Source: Hassallia byssoidea VB512170 (GTDB lineage: Bacteria > Cyanobacteriota > Cyanobacteriia > Cyanobacteriales > Nostocaceae). From it: a stretch of DNA of 60,434 bases. The translations under genes were made by a program, and so were the position numbers. Under the pieces are notes generated by a model that saw nothing but the letters and a program-made list of their open reading frames with translations, was not told where the DNA came from and searched no databases. This document shows, piece after piece, positions 1,913 through 7,808 of this stretch (position 1 is its first letter; each line of letters starts with the position of its first letter). The DNA lies in assembly GCF_000817785.2 (NCBI RefSeq), contig NZ_JTCM02000031.1, forward strand, positions 1 through 60,434. Direction: 5' to 3'.

Positions 1913-3106
1913 TTATTCTGGCAATTTATACTGCCCGACAATACGCTTGGCAAAGTCCGGAACATGTGCATCTAACTTCTCTGGATGATTGCGCTTCACG
2001 TATAAATAGTTACGAGTAAAGTGAGAATCAATCGAGAAACGCGCATATTCCAATCCTTTGGGACCAATTTTTTCAATCACGACACCCATCAATTTTGCCG
2101 CCCACATGGGCAGGGTAACGCCTTTATCGTAAGCGGGAATGCTTTGTTGTACGGCTTCTTTCCGGTTTCCCTGCGACATCACCGGCTGGGTTTCTAGCTG
2201 GTCTTTCACTAAATCCAGCATTTGTTTGCCTGTATCATTTCTAACTACAATCCACTGCCAACCGAAGGGTGCGCCCATATAACCGACTACCAAATCTGCC
2301 AGAGAATTGACGTAATCAAAGCAACTCATGCAAGAAGGGGCAAAAACATCTTTGAGTTTGTTGGTTTTTAAGCCAAAGAAAGGTACGGTTTCTGTTGAGC
2401 CATCTTCATGTTTAAAGTGAACTCGGAAGTCTTGCATAAATTCGTAATGTACGACTGTCTCAGGCGATCGGCTGGTGGTTTCTAAGAATTTTTGCAGTCC
2501 GGCACGGTTAACGTTATCTACACAAGGTGTTCCTAAAACATAAAGCTTTTCTAAGCCAAGTTGTTTTTCGACGGCTCGTAATGCTTGAATTTGGCAACCA
2601 ACCCCAATTACTAACAGTCGCTTCATCCCCGATTTTTCTATCTGTTCCAAGACGGAAAGATTAGGTGATAGTGTTGGTTTGTTTACTCGTGCCGCTAGTA
2701 TTTCTTCTGCGGTTCGGGCGATGATTGGCATCGGTTGAAAGCGGTCTTCTTTGGTGTTTTGCACGCAAACAACACCTTCAACTATGCCGCGATTGAGCAT
2801 TTCAATGGCAATGCTGCTAACAATACCCGTCCATTGCGCTCCTTCGATTGGTTGAGTTTTTCGTGCTGCGGTCATGTGTTGATGAACACCAAAATATAGT
2901 TCATCCGGGTTGTCGAGATTGCGAGAGCGATCGTGTGTTTCTTCTTCAAGTTCGCCTATTTGCTGATTAATAAAAGCGCAGGCTTCCTTGACATAGTGAA
3001 TGTAATATGTATCGCACAGTCCGCACTCGCTACAAAGTTCTTTAGCAGGACGACGGCTAGAGGGTTTGAGAGCCTTGGCTTTTTTGTGAGGAGAAACTGA
3101 AGTCAT
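1913..3106 (-). CDS. bciB: Divinyl chlorophyllide a 8-vinyl reductase, BciB type
   Basis: 397-residue FrhB-family iron-sulfur flavoprotein. It matches the cyanobacterial enzyme (Synechocystis Slr1923 type) that reduces the 8-vinyl group of divinyl chlorophyllide using reduced ferredoxin, giving monovinyl chlorophyll a. Visible features are the N-terminal cluster motif CSECGLC (Cys25, 28, 31), a further APSCMSC pair in the second half, and length typical of the family. The plant relative is 7-hydroxymethyl chlorophyll a reductase, so that activity is the main alternative. The start codon lies inside the upstream sequence that is duplicated at 5195-5326. Confidence 0.82.
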   Translation of the reverse strand: MTSVSPHKKAKALKPSSRRPAKELCSECGLCDTYYIHYVKEACAFINQQIGELEEETHDRSRNLDNPDELYFGVHQHMTAARKTQPIEGAQWTGIVSSIAIEMLNRGIVEGVVCVQNTKEDRFQPMPIIARTAEEILAARVNKPTLSPNLSVLEQIEKSGMKRLLVIGVGCQIQALRAVEKQLGLEKLYVLGTPCVDNVNRAGLQKFLETTSRSPETVVHYEFMQDFRVHFKHEDGSTETVPFFGLKTNKLKDVFAPSCMSCFDYVNSLADLVVGYMGAPFGWQWIVVRNDTGKQMLDLVKDQLETQPVMSQGNRKEAVQQSIPAYDKGVTLPMWAAKLMGVVIEKIGPKGLEYARFSIDSHFTRNYLYVKRNHPEKLDAHVPDFAKRIVGQYKLPE

Positions 3107-3232
3107 GTTAAGCGCAGTTTGTTAACTAAAAACCTAAGATAGCGGAAGGCTGCACTTTACACAAAATTTAAGAATAAAAAGCAAGATTTCATTGATTTCT
3201 CTGAACTCGCAAAAATTTACCAAGTATAAGCT
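3101..3232. repeat. Duplicated upstream region, copy 1
   Basis: About 130 bases closely similar to 5195-5326 at a constant offset of 2094. It includes long identical blocks such as TAACTAAAAACCTAAGATAG and TGCACTTTACACAAAATTTA. It starts at the bciB start codon and ends shortly before the GTG start of the WD40/DnaJ gene, so it holds the promoter of that gene and probably that of bciB. Confidence 0.9.
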
Positions 3233-3265
3233 GTAAGTAACTAATATTACTTAAAATTCAAACAA

Positions 3266-5038
3266 GTGACACAAACTTCTCGAACAGGTGCAGTATTTAT
3301 TGCAGGAGGAGCCGTAGGAGGTGCTGGTGTTTCCGCATCTGTCGGTGGGATGGGATTAGCTGGAGGATTTGGAGCAGTTGGAATTGGAATAGTTCCTGTA
3401 GTTGGTGCCGGCGCTGTTGCTGGTGCAGCTGCTTATGGTGTAATTAATGCGATCGCACAGGGAGATGCTGCGGCTTTCGGTGCAATGGGAATTGGTGCAA
3501 TCGGCGGTGCTGGCGTTTCTAACGTTATTGGTGGTATGGGATTAGTAGCACCAAAAATAGGTTTGGCATTTGGTATTGGTACAGTACCGATGGCAGGAGT
3601 TGGTGCAGTGGTTGGACTTGCAGCCTATGGTATTGCCAAACTGTTAGACGAATCTGGAATTAGTGAAACTCCCGCACAGCTTTTTGAGCGAATGGAAGAA
3701 AAAGTCTTGCAGATGGATTTTTATTCCGCAGCAGTTATCGAGTTAGATTTATTTTTATCTGGGGAGGATCTCAACCAACAATTTGCAGCCTTGGAAGTCG
3801 AAGATGAGTTACAAGCGCTCAAGGCGGAAAGACATAATCCTACAATATCAAATTCCTCGCCATCTATAACCCCGGAAACCTCTGCTTTCAATACAGAAGA
3901 AGTAATATCCCTCAACACCCAAGCATCTGAAACTTGGAGATGTGTACAAACACTTCATTGTCACTCAGCCGCAGTTAATGCGATCGCTATTAGTCCCGAT
4001 GGTAATACCTTTGTTAGTGGCAGTGATGACAGACAAGTTAACCTGTGGGACTTGAAAACAGGAAAATGGCTTTATACTTTCTCCGGACAAGCAGAGGCAG
4101 TTTTATGTGTTGCCATCAGCCCTGATGGACAGCAGATTGTCAGTGGTAGTGTAGATCGCAAAATCAGCAGTTGGCAGCTAGATACAAGAAAATTTATCAG
4201 GACACTCTCTTATTTAAATTCTCCCTACAGTCATAATGGCTTTGTTTGCTCAGTTGCTTTTAGCCCTGATGGAAAAATTCTTGCTAGTGGTAGTGCTGAT
4301 AAAACTATTAGACTTTGGGGACGCTATACAGGAACAGTAAAACGTACCTTTAATGGACATTTAGATGCAGTTTTGTCTGTTGCTTTCAGTCCCGACGCTA
4401 AAATTTTTACTAGTGGCAGTGCCGATAAAACTATTAGACTTTGGGATGTAAAAACTTGGGAACAGCGCTGTATTCTTACCGGACATTTGGCAGCAGTTAA
4501 TACACTTGCCATCAGTCCTAATGGTCAAACTCTTATTAGTGGGAGTACAGACACCACCATTAAGCTGTGGAATCTCCACACTGAGGAACTACTCCACACC
4601 CTGACTGGACACTCAACAGCGGTTTTATCTGTTGCTATCAGCCCAGATGGACAAACCCTCGCTAGTAGCAGCAGAGACGGCATCATCAAACTTTGGAACC
4701 TACAAACTGGGGAAGTATTACAAACTCTTTCTGGGCGTAATCCTGTTGCCTTCAGTCCTGATGGCAAAATGTTGGTAAGTGGTGGTAACGGTGGAAGCAT
4801 CAAGATTTGGTCTCAAAAACAAAACTTTAATGAATCCGTACTTAACCCAATACTATCTGGGGAATGGTGGGAAATCTTAGGCGTAAATCCGGGCAATCAT
4901 CGCAGTGATATCAAACAAGCCTACCTTCAATTAGCAAGACAATATCATCCCGATGTCAACAGTTCTGCAACTGCAAAAGCCTCAATGCAAGCAATTAATC
5001 AGGCTTATAAAGAGTTTTTAGCGCAATTGAATAGCTGA
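3266..5038 (+). CDS. Gly/Ala-rich membrane module + WD40 + DnaJ fusion protein
   Basis: 590 residues, GTG start. Residues about 7-125 hold two copies of a Gly/Ala-rich hydrophobic unit with the signatures GGAGVS, GGMGL and AAYG, likely membrane-inserting glycine-zipper segments. A short acidic linker follows. Residues about 223-515 form seven WD40 blades with repeated SPDG...SGS.D..I.LW cores, giving a beta-propeller for protein contacts. The last 57 residues are a J domain with an intact HPD motif (561-563), which should stimulate an Hsp70. The order membrane module, propeller, J domain is unusual and I do not know a named family. The promoter and end hairpin are shared with the next gene. 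The domains are well seen; the role is unknown. Confidence 0.85.
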   Translation: MTQTSRTGAVFIAGGAVGGAGVSASVGGMGLAGGFGAVGIGIVPVVGAGAVAGAAAYGVINAIAQGDAAAFGAMGIGAIGGAGVSNVIGGMGLVAPKIGLAFGIGTVPMAGVGAVVGLAAYGIAKLLDESGISETPAQLFERMEEKVLQMDFYSAAVIELDLFLSGEDLNQQFAALEVEDELQALKAERHNPTISNSSPSITPETSAFNTEEVISLNTQASETWRCVQTLHCHSAAVNAIAISPDGNTFVSGSDDRQVNLWDLKTGKWLYTFSGQAEAVLCVAISPDGQQIVSGSVDRKISSWQLDTRKFIRTLSYLNSPYSHNGFVCSVAFSPDGKILASGSADKTIRLWGRYTGTVKRTFNGHLDAVLSVAFSPDAKIFTSGSADKTIRLWDVKTWEQRCILTGHLAAVNTLAISPNGQTLISGSTDTTIKLWNLHTEELLHTLTGHSTAVLSVAISPDGQTLASSSRDGIIKLWNLQTGEVLQTLSGRNPVAFSPDGKMLVSGGNGGSIKIWSQKQNFNESVLNPILSGEWWEILGVNPGNHRSDIKQAYLQLARQYHPDVNSSATAKASMQAINQAYKEFLAQLNS

Positions 5039-5080
5039 TAGGTAATCAACACACAGCACCTTTTGAAAAATCTTCTTTTT

Positions 5081-5109
5081 AGCCCTTCAGTGAACTTCAC
5101 CGAAGGGCT
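5081..5109 (+). terminator. End hairpin of the WD40/DnaJ gene (duplicated)
   Basis: Inverted repeat AGCCCTTCAGTGAA / TTCACCGAAGGGCT with one mismatch, 43 bases after the stop. The T-run is weak (TTCACTATTT). An almost identical hairpin with the same 3' flank ends the following two-gene unit at 6595-6622. Confidence 0.6.
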
Positions 5110-5386
5110 TTCACTATTTCAAAAATCTCTCTTCTCTCTTCCTCTGCTTCCTCTGCGCCTAGAAAGGTTCGTTACTCTTTGCGGAAAATTCTAAAGTCAC
5201 GTTAAGCATCATTTATTAACTAAAAACCTAAGATAGCTCAAGGCTGCACTTTACACAAAATTTAAAAATAAAAAGCAAGATTTCACTGATTCTAACGAGG
5301 TTGCAAAAGCTTACTCAGCTTAAACTAAACATAGTATTATCTATCACTTTTAACCAAGTAATAACCAGGAAATAAAAGACAGAAAT
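5110..5386. other. Intergenic region with the second promoter copy
   Basis: Holds a short interspersed remnant rich in CTCTTCCTCTGC-type sequence (about 5125-5185), then the second copy of the upstream duplication, then about 60 AT-rich bases before the next start codon. No gene is visible. Confidence 0.7.
5195..5326. repeat. Duplicated upstream region, copy 2
   Basis: Counterpart of 3101-3232 at an offset of 2094. It sits at the same distance from the start of the second Gly-rich gene as copy 1 does from the first, so promoter and coding module were duplicated together. Confidence 0.9.
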
Positions 5387-6190
5387 ATGGGACTAAATAA
5401 TCGCATCAGCCGCATAGTCAAAGCAAACCTTAACGATATAGCAGGTAATTTCAAACCAGGAGAAAGTGCAGCATTTATTGCTGGAGGAGTCGCCACTGGT
5501 GCTGCTATTTCTCATACAGTCGGTGGTATGGGATTAGCAGCCGCAGGAACAGCTGTAGGTATTGGTGCGCCGCATTTGATGGCTGCGGGAGCGGTTACGG
5601 GTATGGCTGCTTATGGAGCTAAGAAAGGAATAGAAAACCAAGATCCCTTAGCTTTGGGTGCAGCTGCACTAGGAGCGGTTGGTGGTGCTGGAGTTTCTGC
5701 CACTGTTGGAAAGATGGGATTACTTGCAGCCGGAAGCGGTTTTAGCATTGGTATGGCTCCTGTAGCTGCTGCTGGTGCAGTTGTTGGACTTGGTGGTTAT
5801 GGTTTGTTGAAGTTGCTTGATGGTAGTCAAGATACTAATGACCCAAACAAAGTTGTTGAATCTCTTAACCAAACAAAATTCAGCATACTACAGAATATTC
5901 ATCTTGCTAAACGTAACAGAGAACAAGTACAAGCAAATTACAACCAAGCTGAAAATAAAGTCCAAGAGTGGCATCAAATAGCTTTATTAGCTATGAAAAA
6001 AGAACGTGAAGATTTGGCTCGTGAAGCTTTGACTCGTAAGCATACTCACCAGCATTCTGCTGATAGCCTGAAAAATCAGCTTGAGCAGTTAATCACAGTA
6101 ATAAACAGTCTCGAAAATGACTTAAGGTTTATTGAAAAGACAATTGCCCAAGTTAAAGCAGAAGCCGACTCAAACTATGGGTGGGCTTAA
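5387..6190 (+). CDS. Gly/Ala-rich membrane protein with helical tail
   Basis: 267 residues. Residues about 26-148 contain two units homologous to the N-terminus of the WD40/DnaJ protein (GGMGLA, GAVxGxxxYG, GGAGVS). Instead of WD40 and J domains the C-terminal 110 residues are charged and helical, probably a coiled coil (QVQANYNQAENKVQEW, then NQLEQLITVINSLEN). It is a tandem paralogue that kept only the membrane module. Its stop is two bases from the ATG of the HNH gene, so the two are very likely co-translated. Function unknown; a membrane-active effector or scaffold is a guess. Confidence 0.8.
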   Translation: MGLNNRISRIVKANLNDIAGNFKPGESAAFIAGGVATGAAISHTVGGMGLAAAGTAVGIGAPHLMAAGAVTGMAAYGAKKGIENQDPLALGAAALGAVGGAGVSATVGKMGLLAAGSGFSIGMAPVAAAGAVVGLGGYGLLKLLDGSQDTNDPNKVVESLNQTKFSILQNIHLAKRNREQVQANYNQAENKVQEWHQIALLAMKKEREDLAREALTRKHTHQHSADSLKNQLEQLITVINSLENDLRFIEKTIAQVKAEADSNYGWA

Positions 6191-6192
6191 CA

Positions 6193-6567
6193 ATGTCAAG
6201 AAAAACTACTAATTCACTGCAAAAACTTGTACGAGGGGTGATTCGGGATTTTGCAGTTTTGGTAAATGAGCCAAAGCCTGAGAAAGTAAAGAAGGCAAAA
6301 GCGAAAAAATATCCTGTTACCAAATCTCAATCTCAGCCAAAGCAACAAGCAAACAAGCGATCGCGTTACATTCCCCTATCAGTTCGTTTTACAGTTCTCC
6401 AAAGAGACAATCATAAATGTGTATCTTGTGGTAAAACTCCCCCAGAAGTCACTCTAGAAGTCGATCATAAAGAACCGTTTTCTCAAGGAGGTACAAACGA
6501 CATTAGCAACTTGCGAACGCTGTGTTTCAAGTGCAATCGTGGCAAAGGTGCGCGTAGCTTAAAATAA
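6193..6567 (+). CDS. HNH endonuclease domain protein
   Basis: 124 residues from the ATG at 6193 (an in-frame GTG at 6181 would overlap the preceding gene). The N-terminal 60 residues are basic and Lys-rich. The C-terminal half is an HNH fold: CVSCGK and CFKCNRG zinc-binding pairs flank LEVDHKEPFSQGG, with the catalytic His in VDH and the Asn in DISNL. Such domains cut DNA. Its immediate coupling to the Gly-rich gene suggests they act together. It is too small to be a restriction enzyme of known layout and has no immunity gene that I can recognise. Confidence 0.85.
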   Translation: MSRKTTNSLQKLVRGVIRDFAVLVNEPKPEKVKKAKAKKYPVTKSQSQPKQQANKRSRYIPLSVRFTVLQRDNHKCVSCGKTPPEVTLEVDHKEPFSQGGTNDISNLRTLCFKCNRGKGARSLK

Positions 6568-6594
6568 CGTACAAAATCTTTAATTATCGGAAAT

Positions 6595-6622
6595 AGCCCT
6601 TCAGTGAACTCACCGAAGGGCT
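6595..6622 (+). terminator. End hairpin of the Gly-rich/HNH unit
   Basis: AGCCCTTCAGTGAA and TTCACCGAAGGGCT-type arms, near-identical to 5081-5109 and likewise followed by TTCACTATTT. The repeated use of promoter and hairpin frames two tandem transcription units. Confidence 0.6.
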
Positions 6623-6639
6623 TTCACTATTTTCCCTCT

Positions 6640-6715
6640 TCCTTTGCGTCTCTGCGCGCCAGTCGCCTCACTCCTCCACCCCCGCACGGCGCTGGCTTGC
6701 CTCTGCGTGAGACCT
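6640..6715. repeat. Interspersed palindromic remnant
   Basis: Contains CTCTGCGCGCCAGTCGCC and GCACGGCGCTGGC-type blocks followed by TTGCCTCTGCGTGAG. These are short GC-rich pieces unlike the flanks and of a kind scattered between genes in filamentous cyanobacteria. No coding role is seen. Confidence 0.5.
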
Positions 6716-6722
6716 TGCTTAA

Positions 6723-7808
6723 TCAAACAGCACTCTCAACAGATTCCTCTCGAAAACCCAAGCGCGATCGCTTTTGCAAAAATATTTCCTGCATTCGCTC
6801 AGTATAAGGCAGCAACAAAGCTTTTTGTTCTGGATTCACACGCCTAATAATTTCATCCCCTAATACTTGACACCATTTTTCTGTCATTTCCCATTTGATT
6901 TCTACTCCCTCGACAACCATCTCACATAAAGGAAGCAATTCTTCTTCAAATGATGCCATACTACCCTCTAAAAAACACAACCATAAATATGCCTGAAACA
7001 TATTTAAGTCACGAAGGCAAGAGTGTGTTACACCAGAATCATTCAATTTTCCCCGACGGCTGCGATGATTGGGCAATAATTCTACAAGTCGATTATAAAC
7101 ACTTTGAGCAATATCCCTAGCTGCTGGTAACATTTGCTCTACAATCATAAACTCAGGCGAATTGAATTTATATTTAGCACTTTGATTGCAGACTCGCTGC
7201 CACGGCATCGCAACTTGCTCTTCGACAAAGTTTAAGTAAGAAGCAAGCAATATTTTTTCACATGGTGTAAGTTTTTTCAGAATTAAACTATTGCTAAAAT
7301 TCAACTGCGTTGTCAAAAAACCTAGGGCACGCCAATCCTTAGATGCAATGTGTTGTTCTTGAAACACCAATAATATTGGTTCAAGAGCGTATGCTAGTTC
7401 CTCAATTGCTGGAATTGCCCATAAAGTAAGGGAATTATCTTTACTTTCAACCGAAACTGAGCCAGTATTTATTGACTGTTTTTGATAAATTTCTAGTACT
7501 TTTCTATACACCCTAAAGGCAAATTGAGTTATGCGCTTTGCCTCGTTCAAATCTAAAATGTTAGGAATATAAGAGTAAAGGGTTTTTGTTTGTATCCATG
7601 CCATGTTGCAGTTGATATCTAATACGTTATCCTTTAACTTGGTAGCAGTTAAGGCTCGACCCTCTGGGGATGAGGCTTTGAGCAACTCTTCAGCGGATGC
7701 TCCGTTTTCTAAAGATAGAGAGGATAAATCAACTGTGTAGCGCTGTGCCCAAAGATTGAGCAAACGGTCAACCGTGGGAGTTTTCACAGGTTGAGAGGTT
7801 TTTAACAT
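6723..7808 (-). CDS. Unknown helical protein
   Basis: 361 residues, mostly predicted helical, with no signal peptide, membrane segment or motif I recognise. It is rich in Leu/Glu/Arg and contains pairs such as NMAWIQTKT and FQAYLWLCFLEGS. It converges on the HNH unit and has the 1.4-kb gene-free stretch upstream. Length and codon use are those of a normal gene. I cannot assign a family; a soluble regulatory or scaffolding protein is only a guess. Confidence 0.6.
   Translation of the reverse strand: MLKTSQPVKTPTVDRLLNLWAQRYTVDLSSLSLENGASAEELLKASSPEGRALTATKLKDNVLDINCNMAWIQTKTLYSYIPNILDLNEAKRITQFAFRVYRKVLEIYQKQSINTGSVSVESKDNSLTLWAIPAIEELAYALEPILLVFQEQHIASKDWRALGFLTTQLNFSNSLILKKLTPCEKILLASYLNFVEEQVAMPWQRVCNQSAKYKFNSPEFMIVEQMLPAARDIAQSVYNRLVELLPNHRSRRGKLNDSGVTHSCLRDLNMFQAYLWLCFLEGSMASFEEELLPLCEMVVEGVEIKWEMTEKWCQVLGDEIIRRVNPEQKALLLPYTERMQEIFLQKRSRLGFREESVESAV

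Follow-up and report, generated by a model that had tools for sequence, protein, structure and literature searches.

Why a membrane-type protein, an Hsp70-recruiting protein and a DNA-cutting protein should be encoded side by side is the question raised by a small locus of the cyanobacterium Hassallia byssoidea VB512170 (Nostocaceae). The locus lies in a stretch of 60,434 nucleotides (nt), positions 1 to 60,434 of contig NZ_JTCM02000031.1, the whole of which is here called the window. It consists of three plus-strand genes, encoding a 590-amino-acid (aa) protein (3266-5038), a 267-aa protein (5387-6190) and a small HNH protein (6193-6567). The reading preferred here, at slightly less than even confidence and from sequence comparison, is that of a chaperone-controlled, membrane-anchored relative of PspA/Vipp1 (the bacterial ESCRT-III) with an optional, exchangeable nuclease effector, whose role is probably in stress or in conflict with phages. 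The PspA/Hsp70 part of this reading is likely, and the swapping of nucleases among relatives suggests a membrane-linked stress or defence device. There is a fair chance that the locus, built from known parts, is a new type of system; no description of such a locus was found in the open-licence PMC literature.

PspA/Vipp1 parts on two module-bearing chains

The tail of the 267-aa protein, in which the original prediction saw a generic coiled coil, belongs to the PspA/IM30 family (PF04012, E 4e-12, 46.7 bits against a gathering score of 33.9). A search of PDB sequences with this tail gave solved Vipp1 chains (2.3e-9). In the structure model the tail forms two long helices, with a predicted local distance difference test score (pLDDT) of 80-98 (by tens) over residues 151-260, and the Foldseek ranks 1-15 obtained with the model are all Vipp1/PspA (best E 1.1e-3), the top ranks reflecting the PspA tail. 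A hidden Markov model (HMM) built from 16 Vipp1/PspA proteins of related genomes separates two parts in the chain. Residues 1-21 (5387-5449) match HMM positions 1-21, the amphipathic helix alpha0 (13.3 bits), and residues 158-260 (5858-6166) match positions 38-136, the helical hairpin (59.3 bits). Between them, at residues 22-148 (5450-5830), DNA repeats and alignment place a Gly/Ala-rich module of two units. The PspA C-terminal part is missing from this chain.

That part is found in the 590-aa protein, which has a GTG start. Residues 1-130 (3266-3655) align as the module, with no alpha0 before it, and residues 138-207 (3677-3886), between module and propeller, match HMM positions 166-236 (33.5 bits). 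Residues 216-520 (3911-4825) hold seven WD40 repeats (seven stretches of PF00400, seven DNA repeat copies) and residues 526-590 (4841-5035) a J domain with HPD (TIGR02349, 1.7e-10), so that the seven-bladed propeller and J domain first predicted are both present. Pfam places the linker at PF04012 positions 160-211 (E 0.0011, 19.1 bits, under the gathering score) and finds the PspA C-terminus in the linker of 8/8 relatives (between profile positions 160 and 218, with E from 0.018 to 1.5e-5, all under the cut-off). With the Vipp1 HMM the C-terminal part was recognised at the linker in 49 of the 53 WD40-type module open reading frames (ORFs). The HPD motif is kept in 45 of 47 WD40-J ORFs, the J domain being cut short in the other two.

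As placed by the profile matches, the Gly-rich module is inserted between the PspA helices alpha0 and alpha1, and the PspA pieces in the window complement each other across two chains that both carry a module copy: alpha0 and the hairpin on one, the C-terminal part on the other. The two-unit modules at both N-termini correspond to four DNA repeat copies (family D3), and the proteins are 52% identical. In 12 ORFs of relatives a nearly complete PspA comes after the module on the same chain (residues 137-384, HMM positions 13 or 15 to 218-258, 187-369 bits). Residues 3-24 of 11 of these 12 ORFs match HMM positions 2-23, each weakly (-1.2 to 7.3 bits) and at a constant place; the twelfth (L053) lacks its start. 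A core running from alpha0 to the C-terminal part in one chain was not found in the window and is nearly complete in these 12 relatives only. Because the core is split over two chains, the locus is regarded as encoding a PspA descendant and not a regular PspA/IM30 member. It has in common with PspA/Vipp1 (IM30) that alpha0, the alpha1-3 hairpin and the C-terminal part are recognisable by sequence, and differs in the approximately 125 Gly/Ala-rich residues between alpha0 and alpha1 and in the distribution of the parts over two chains. In a survey of PspA architectures the departures amount to less than 2% and are tandem repeats and fusions such as NlpC/P60 and PspAA (PMC11237479). The words glycine, WD40, DnaJ and HNH are absent from the main text of that survey.

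A J-domain protein tied to a Vipp1-type protein has a precedent in Chlamydomonas, where HSP70B, CDJ2 and CGE1 assemble and dismantle VIPP1 in vitro (PMC10602608). The J domain of the locus differs in being joined in one chain to a module, a PspA C-terminal part and a WD40 propeller; the comparison with CDJ2 covers the J domain. Cyanobacterial Vipp1 binds DnaK2 and DnaK3 (PMC4297356), and Vipp1 is linked with Hsp70/J also in PMC13051332. The WD40-J protein, having HPD, is a putative J-domain co-chaperone, which would stimulate a DnaK on a Vipp1-type client; rod or ring formation and membrane binding are further marks of the PspA/IM30 family. DnaJ-domain genes occur near cyanobacterial WD40 genes in a survey of prokaryotic WD40 proteins, whereas the words PspA and HNH are absent from its main text (PMC5587647).

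The module gave nothing better than E 0.22 against Pfam in 21 members. Two phage identities were rejected: a holin, with E 0.22 in one of the 21, and a coat protein, with a best PDB sequence match of 0.025, were both judged to be chance. A likeness of the module to IFI6/ISG12 proteins found no support in the analysis.

Several further genes were observed beside the PspA-related ones. An ORF of 2270 aa, open at the region end and with a weak peptidase-like match only, begins 140 nt past a module-PspA gene (L046:9192-16001), and a DUF2887 protein (PF11103, 4.5e-76) begins 119 nt past another, beside a module-only gene and frhB (L176:3746-4537). PspA-mosaic genes without a module, with two matched PspA stretches each, lie near or overlap WD40-J genes (L059:4326-5048, L056:5608-6414, L058:5803-6657 and L052:7671-8657), and genes of one or two partial PspA copies adjoin WD40-J genes in other Nostocaceae. 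In six loci (L079, L109, L099, L205, L209 and L210) a module ORF is directly followed by the remainder of a WD40-J gene, pointing to decay or draft errors.

Nuclease partners of the module genes

The module is present in at least 112 of 192 genomes of the family and in 44 of 386 genomes of the phylum. The 120 distinct module ORFs comprise 53 of the WD40 type, 12 with full PspA, 14 of the 267-aa type, 29 module-only, 8 half modules and 4 others; three of the 29 module-only ORFs were taken for broken WD40-J genes and excluded, leaving 26. Gene maps were drawn with a simple longest-ORF caller, whose starts may be off, and copies from the same genome under two locus ids were removed only if their sequences were identical. 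HNH adjacency, trio loci, upstream element sites and alpha0 were scored by script, PD-(D/E)XK adjacency by eye.

The HNH protein of the window (124 aa, PF01844, 3e-14) begins 2 nt past the stop of the 267-aa gene, most likely at the ATG at 6193 according to the alignment of starts with relatives. It contains an N-terminal helix (QKLVRG.IRD, 6199-6267) and the HNH domain proper (6418-6555, residues 80-125 of a 128-aa reading). The zinc CxxC pairs and the catalytic DH...N...N are present, and 18 of 22 HNH ORFs have the strict motif; by eye, L116 has lost the catalytic His and the three others differ elsewhere. Full-length HNH genes with the N-terminal extension were found in at least 18 of the 192 family genomes. 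Among the matches listed, sorted by E-value for HNH and module alike, all 18 lie less than 400 nt from a module match (-4 to 363 nt, script recount); in G092 the neighbouring module match is the WD40-J gene, where the contig ends. Among the weaker HNH matches listed (E of 1.8e-19 upwards), nearly all leave out the N-terminal helix, starting no earlier than query residue 29. Four shortened matches were set aside: G083, which adjoins a module gene, G070 and G144, without a module match, and G154, at a contig end. The coupling of the HNH gene that had been predicted is borne out by this adjacency, and separate conservation of HNH, or a failure of the genes to meet elsewhere, was not observed.

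For 11 of the 22 distinct HNH loci, the fetched region contains HNH together with a WD40-type module gene and another module gene. The association of membrane-type, Hsp70-recruiting and nuclease parts is thus real; its exact form, 267-aa protein, HNH and WD40-J, was seen only in the window, and a 267-aa type is followed by HNH in 2 of 14 cases. Four of the 22 HNH ORFs have no second module ORF in the gene map: in L065 the contig ends and WD40-J stands beside HNH, L195 has a half module with a stop, in L184 a module piece was missed by the ORF caller, and L201 is short and at a contig end. A conserved protein of approximately 150-177 aa, of no clear family, was observed between the HNH and WD40-J genes of several genomes (L052:6287-6745, L060:6555-7088 and L062:5606-6070).

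In Microcystis and relatives the gene after the module encodes the same N-terminal helix followed by a PD-(D/E)XK-like domain. Such a match was obtained in 15 of the 386 phylum genomes. Eight include all or most of the helix and all eight stand beside a module gene; the other seven begin at query residue 37 or later, without the helix, none beside a module match, and were set aside. The motif GRID...E.IE(V/L)K is strict in 8 of 10 ORFs; in the remaining two, inspection by eye still shows D, E and K. Matches to the profile libraries are weak (Pfam PDDEXK_9 0.0043 and PADLOC Cas4b 7e-4, each at best). A phmmer search with the helix of the PD-(D/E)XK protein retrieved HNH proteins at 4e-4 to 1e-7, and the reverse search with the HNH helix retrieved one of four PD-(D/E)XK loci (5e-4). 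Judged by hydrophobic moment, the helix is more amphipathic than shuffled sequences in 6 of 7 examples (P <= 0.004), the exception being L094 (P 0.37). A third type, a protein of 398-404 aa with a partial PADLOC PDC-S18 match (1.4e-10 to 5.8e-12), lies 31-35 nt past the module-PspA gene in four genomes, one of these loci being on a Nostoc plasmid; NucS_C matches are below the Pfam cut-off in the three scanned.

The 26 module-only ORFs are followed by HNH in 12 cases, by PD-(D/E)XK in 8 (one of them, L089, a short ORF 189 nt away) and by neither in 6, and in 14 of these 20 pairs the nuclease start lies no more than 4 nt to either side of the module gene's end. By comparison of these genes, module genes are shown to be coupled to at least three kinds of putative nuclease, two of which have a common N-terminal helix. 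A two-gene overlap with the small partner first, and nuclease domains swapped behind a constant N-terminus, would also be found in a toxin-antitoxin or contact-competition pair in which the nuclease is the toxin and the module protein its immunity or export partner. In line with such a pair, the same upstream element precedes, in three relatives, Gly-rich proteins whose start resembles a signal peptide by eye. Module genes often occur without HNH, however, something for which a protein acting as antitoxin alone would have no need, and this explanation is considered very improbable.

Matches to known defence proteins are confined to parts of the chains. PADLOC gave HEAT-ARM_XIII for the WD40 part (1.3e-25, repeats) and REase_II (1.2e-8), PtuB (1.5e-6) and DpdF (3e-6) for the HNH part. 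The nuclease domains of the locus thus have partial likeness to those of PtuB, REase_II and PDC-S18, but the two neighbours in the window match no partner gene, and the constant part here is the module with the N-terminal helix. Septu (PtuAB) in particular was not recognised, as no PtuA was found among the two neighbours of the HNH gene.

Repeated elements and the history of the locus

The original prediction described a promoter region, module and end hairpin that occur twice in the same order, and this observation holds. The upstream element at 3097-3232 (plus strand), which overlaps the start of a divergent frhB-type gene, is 81% identical to that at 5191-5326 (plus strand) over 136 nt and 89% identical over the first 101 nt. 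Searched against the complete 7.5-Mb assembly (E <= 0.001), the element has these two sites only, both at the locus; this is the one unselected control for it. The 92-nt core (3141-3232) has 33 distinct sites in the fetched loci, 26 of them no more than 250 nt upstream of a gene of the module or PspA family, a count that is inflated because the loci were fetched for holding a module and that includes orthologous, not independent, loci; the counts are therefore support and not a test. The sites include module-PspA genes away from frhB as well as module/HNH pairs. One upstream element, as judged from these alignments, is common to many module- and PspA-family genes. No sigma-70 consensus was found inside it. 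Three of the seven remaining sites precede Gly/Ala-rich proteins with a signal-peptide-like start by eye (L066:8218-8661, L096:7466-8080 and L103:8876-9322), the last with a weak match to the module HMM (10.9 bits).

The hairpins 3' of the WD40-J gene (5081-5109, plus strand) and of the HNH gene (6595-6622, plus strand) are the only exact pattern matches in the assembly, with zero mismatches allowed. Their folding energies of -17.8 and -18.1 kcal/mol (z -5.9 and -5.1) both beat all 200 shuffles. A terminator scan of the region found 0 against 3.3 expected from shuffles, and the label of terminator is therefore unproven. An Rfam scan of 2900-6900 gave no match at E <= 0.1. The near-identical hairpins are direct repeats that flank the pair of 267-aa and HNH genes, and may be the marks of an inserted cassette.

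In the phylogenetic tree of 110 modules, the WD40 type (50 of 52) and the 267-aa type (all 14) form two separate groups, with support of 0.97 and 0.98 respectively. The WD40-type group also holds seven pieces read as broken WD40-J genes or relatives, and L191 and L206 fall outside it. Because they belong to separate clades, the two modules of the window are old paralogues and not each other's closest relatives. The history first proposed, a tandem duplication after which one copy gained WD40 and J domains, is refuted for the modules. The 81-89% upstream repeat and the identical hairpin stretches would fit a recent tandem duplication of a low-complexity membrane protein with neighbours by chance, and the hairpin copies may have arisen in this way, but the upstream element is also found in relatives of other genera and at other genomic places; together with the tree, this leaves such an origin of the locus with hardly any probability.

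Exchange at the locus is seen in the sister species Spirirestis rafaelensis (L108), in which a PspA-mosaic gene lies between frhB and WD40-J and the pair of 267-aa and HNH genes is absent. Window 2901-3197 corresponds to L108 8389-8685 (98%) and window 3182-5050 to L108 9893-11760 (93%). The sister species has an extra 1.2-kb stretch, which carries the mosaic gene, at a junction that the window has at 3182-3197, and because this break lies inside the upstream element the exchange appears to run through the element. In the genus of the window, all that G070 retains beside frhB is an HNH remnant and a stretch resembling the hairpin, and it has no module match; G021 has no module match among the matches listed, and the completeness of G124 is only 54%.

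A selfish cassette, in which HNH or PD-(D/E)XK genes spread in a homing-like manner by cutting and repair with the module gene as landing site, would fit three observations: sister species have gained or lost genes, with the junction located in the repeated element; G070 and G144 retain HNH remnants but have no module match; and one relative is plasmid-borne. Homing needs neither the close spacing, with 14 of 20 nuclease starts within 4 nt of the module gene end, nor an N-terminal helix conserved across two folds, and this explanation is rated improbable.

The gene flanking the locus to the left is the frhB-type gene (1913-3106, minus strand) of the F420-hydrogenase beta family. To the right, the gene at 6723-7808 (minus strand) has a weak phycobilisome likeness (PF00502, E 4e-4, just under the cut-off, and no NCBIfam match) and is retained near the locus in several relatives.

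Membrane upkeep or an exchangeable effector

The chief alternative to the preferred reading is that the locus serves membrane upkeep only: the WD40-J and module-PspA proteins would service thylakoid or plasma membranes, as a cyanobacterial counterpart of VIPP1-CDJ2-HSP70, and the nuclease gene would be a passenger. The WD40 type is the commonest of the module ORFs (53 of 120), and for 40 of the 53 the fetched region shows neither HNH nor PD-(D/E)XK as a partner. The slot adjoins frhB-type and GH100 invertase genes. In addition to the binding of DnaK2 and DnaK3 by Synechocystis Vipp1 (PMC4297356), membrane binding has been reported for the alpha1-3 hairpin, and engagement with internal tubules for alpha0 (PMC12636044). 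Against a passenger, the helix-bearing nucleases stand beside a module gene in 18/18 HNH cases (among the matches listed) and 8/8 PD-(D/E)XK cases, the active-site residues are kept in nearly all, and two nuclease folds have a common helix. Upkeep alone is a credible account, placed on the unlikely side.

Several results weigh against the chaperone-controlled device with a nuclease effector. An HNH or PD-(D/E)XK partner lies in the fetched region of only 13 of the 53 WD40-type ORFs, and most module-bearing genomes have no HNH (module in at least 112, full-length HNH in at least 18 of 192), so that nuclease release cannot be the general function. From their distribution the nucleases are an add-on and not a constant part. 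The 120 pattern matches in IMG/VR viral contigs confirmed no module, a relative was found in one plasmid record of 72,556, and the loci of a one-pattern scan, at least 45, are all cyanobacterial by record title. PADLOC, applied to the three window proteins, gave no known anti-phage system and partial domain matches only. Modelled alone (30 alignment rows), the module had a pLDDT of 44.5 and a predicted template-modelling score of 0.22, and it is also below pLDDT 50 in the 267-aa model; because it could not be folded, its membrane insertion is argued from composition. The selection behind the element counts weighs in the same direction.

The mechanism proposed for the preferred reading is inferred from the anatomy of the locus together with the precedents of HSP70B-CDJ2-VIPP1, Vipp1-DnaK, membrane binding by the hairpin and alpha0, and the cyclase of the Bacillus cyclic-oligonucleotide-based antiphage signalling system (CBASS), which is proposed to be inactive on PspA until phage infection (PMC11153139). 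In the latter case, as at the locus, a PspA-type protein is coupled to an immune enzyme, but the cyclase is enzymatically conjugated to the host's own PspA whereas the locus encodes a PspA relative beside a nuclease (PMC11153139). Alpha0 and the hairpin would bring the protein to the cell or thylakoid membrane, where the Gly-zipper-like stretches of the module would insert and pack against their counterparts in partner proteins. DnaK, recruited by the J domain, would assemble or dismantle the polymer in the way HSP70B-CDJ2 acts on VIPP1. By its short amphipathic helix the nuclease would be docked on the module or the membrane and kept inactive; damage to the membrane, as by phage entry, or remodelling of the polymer would free it to cut DNA. 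The WD40-J/PspA part would then be the core and the nuclease an exchangeable add-on for conflict. In its boldest form, that of a new kind of bacterial immune device, an ESCRT-III-type polymer with a built-in glycine-zipper anchor would guard the membrane, an Hsp70 co-chaperone would set its assembly, and the docked, exchangeable nuclease would be freed at a breach such as phage entry to destroy DNA; this form is rather unlikely on the present evidence. Defence and membrane remodelling had both been offered as functions of the locus. Remodelling gains from the PspA/Vipp1 identity, and either function may apply. Overall the original prediction was right in what it observed and wrong in the history, and the association it noticed is real and larger than was thought.

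The locus links bacterial ESCRT-III, its control by Hsp70 and DNA-cutting enzymes, which are treated apart in the cited papers. Because Vipp1 binds DnaK2 and DnaK3 (PMC4297356) and CDJ2 serves algal VIPP1 (PMC10602608), a J protein with a PspA part of its own is a natural candidate for the adaptor in cyanobacteria. The module forms a protein family that no Pfam entry matches convincingly, and it is found in at least 112 of the 192 family genomes. If the nuclease is truly an effector, the locus would be a sensor of membrane breach for immunity made from ESCRT-III parts.

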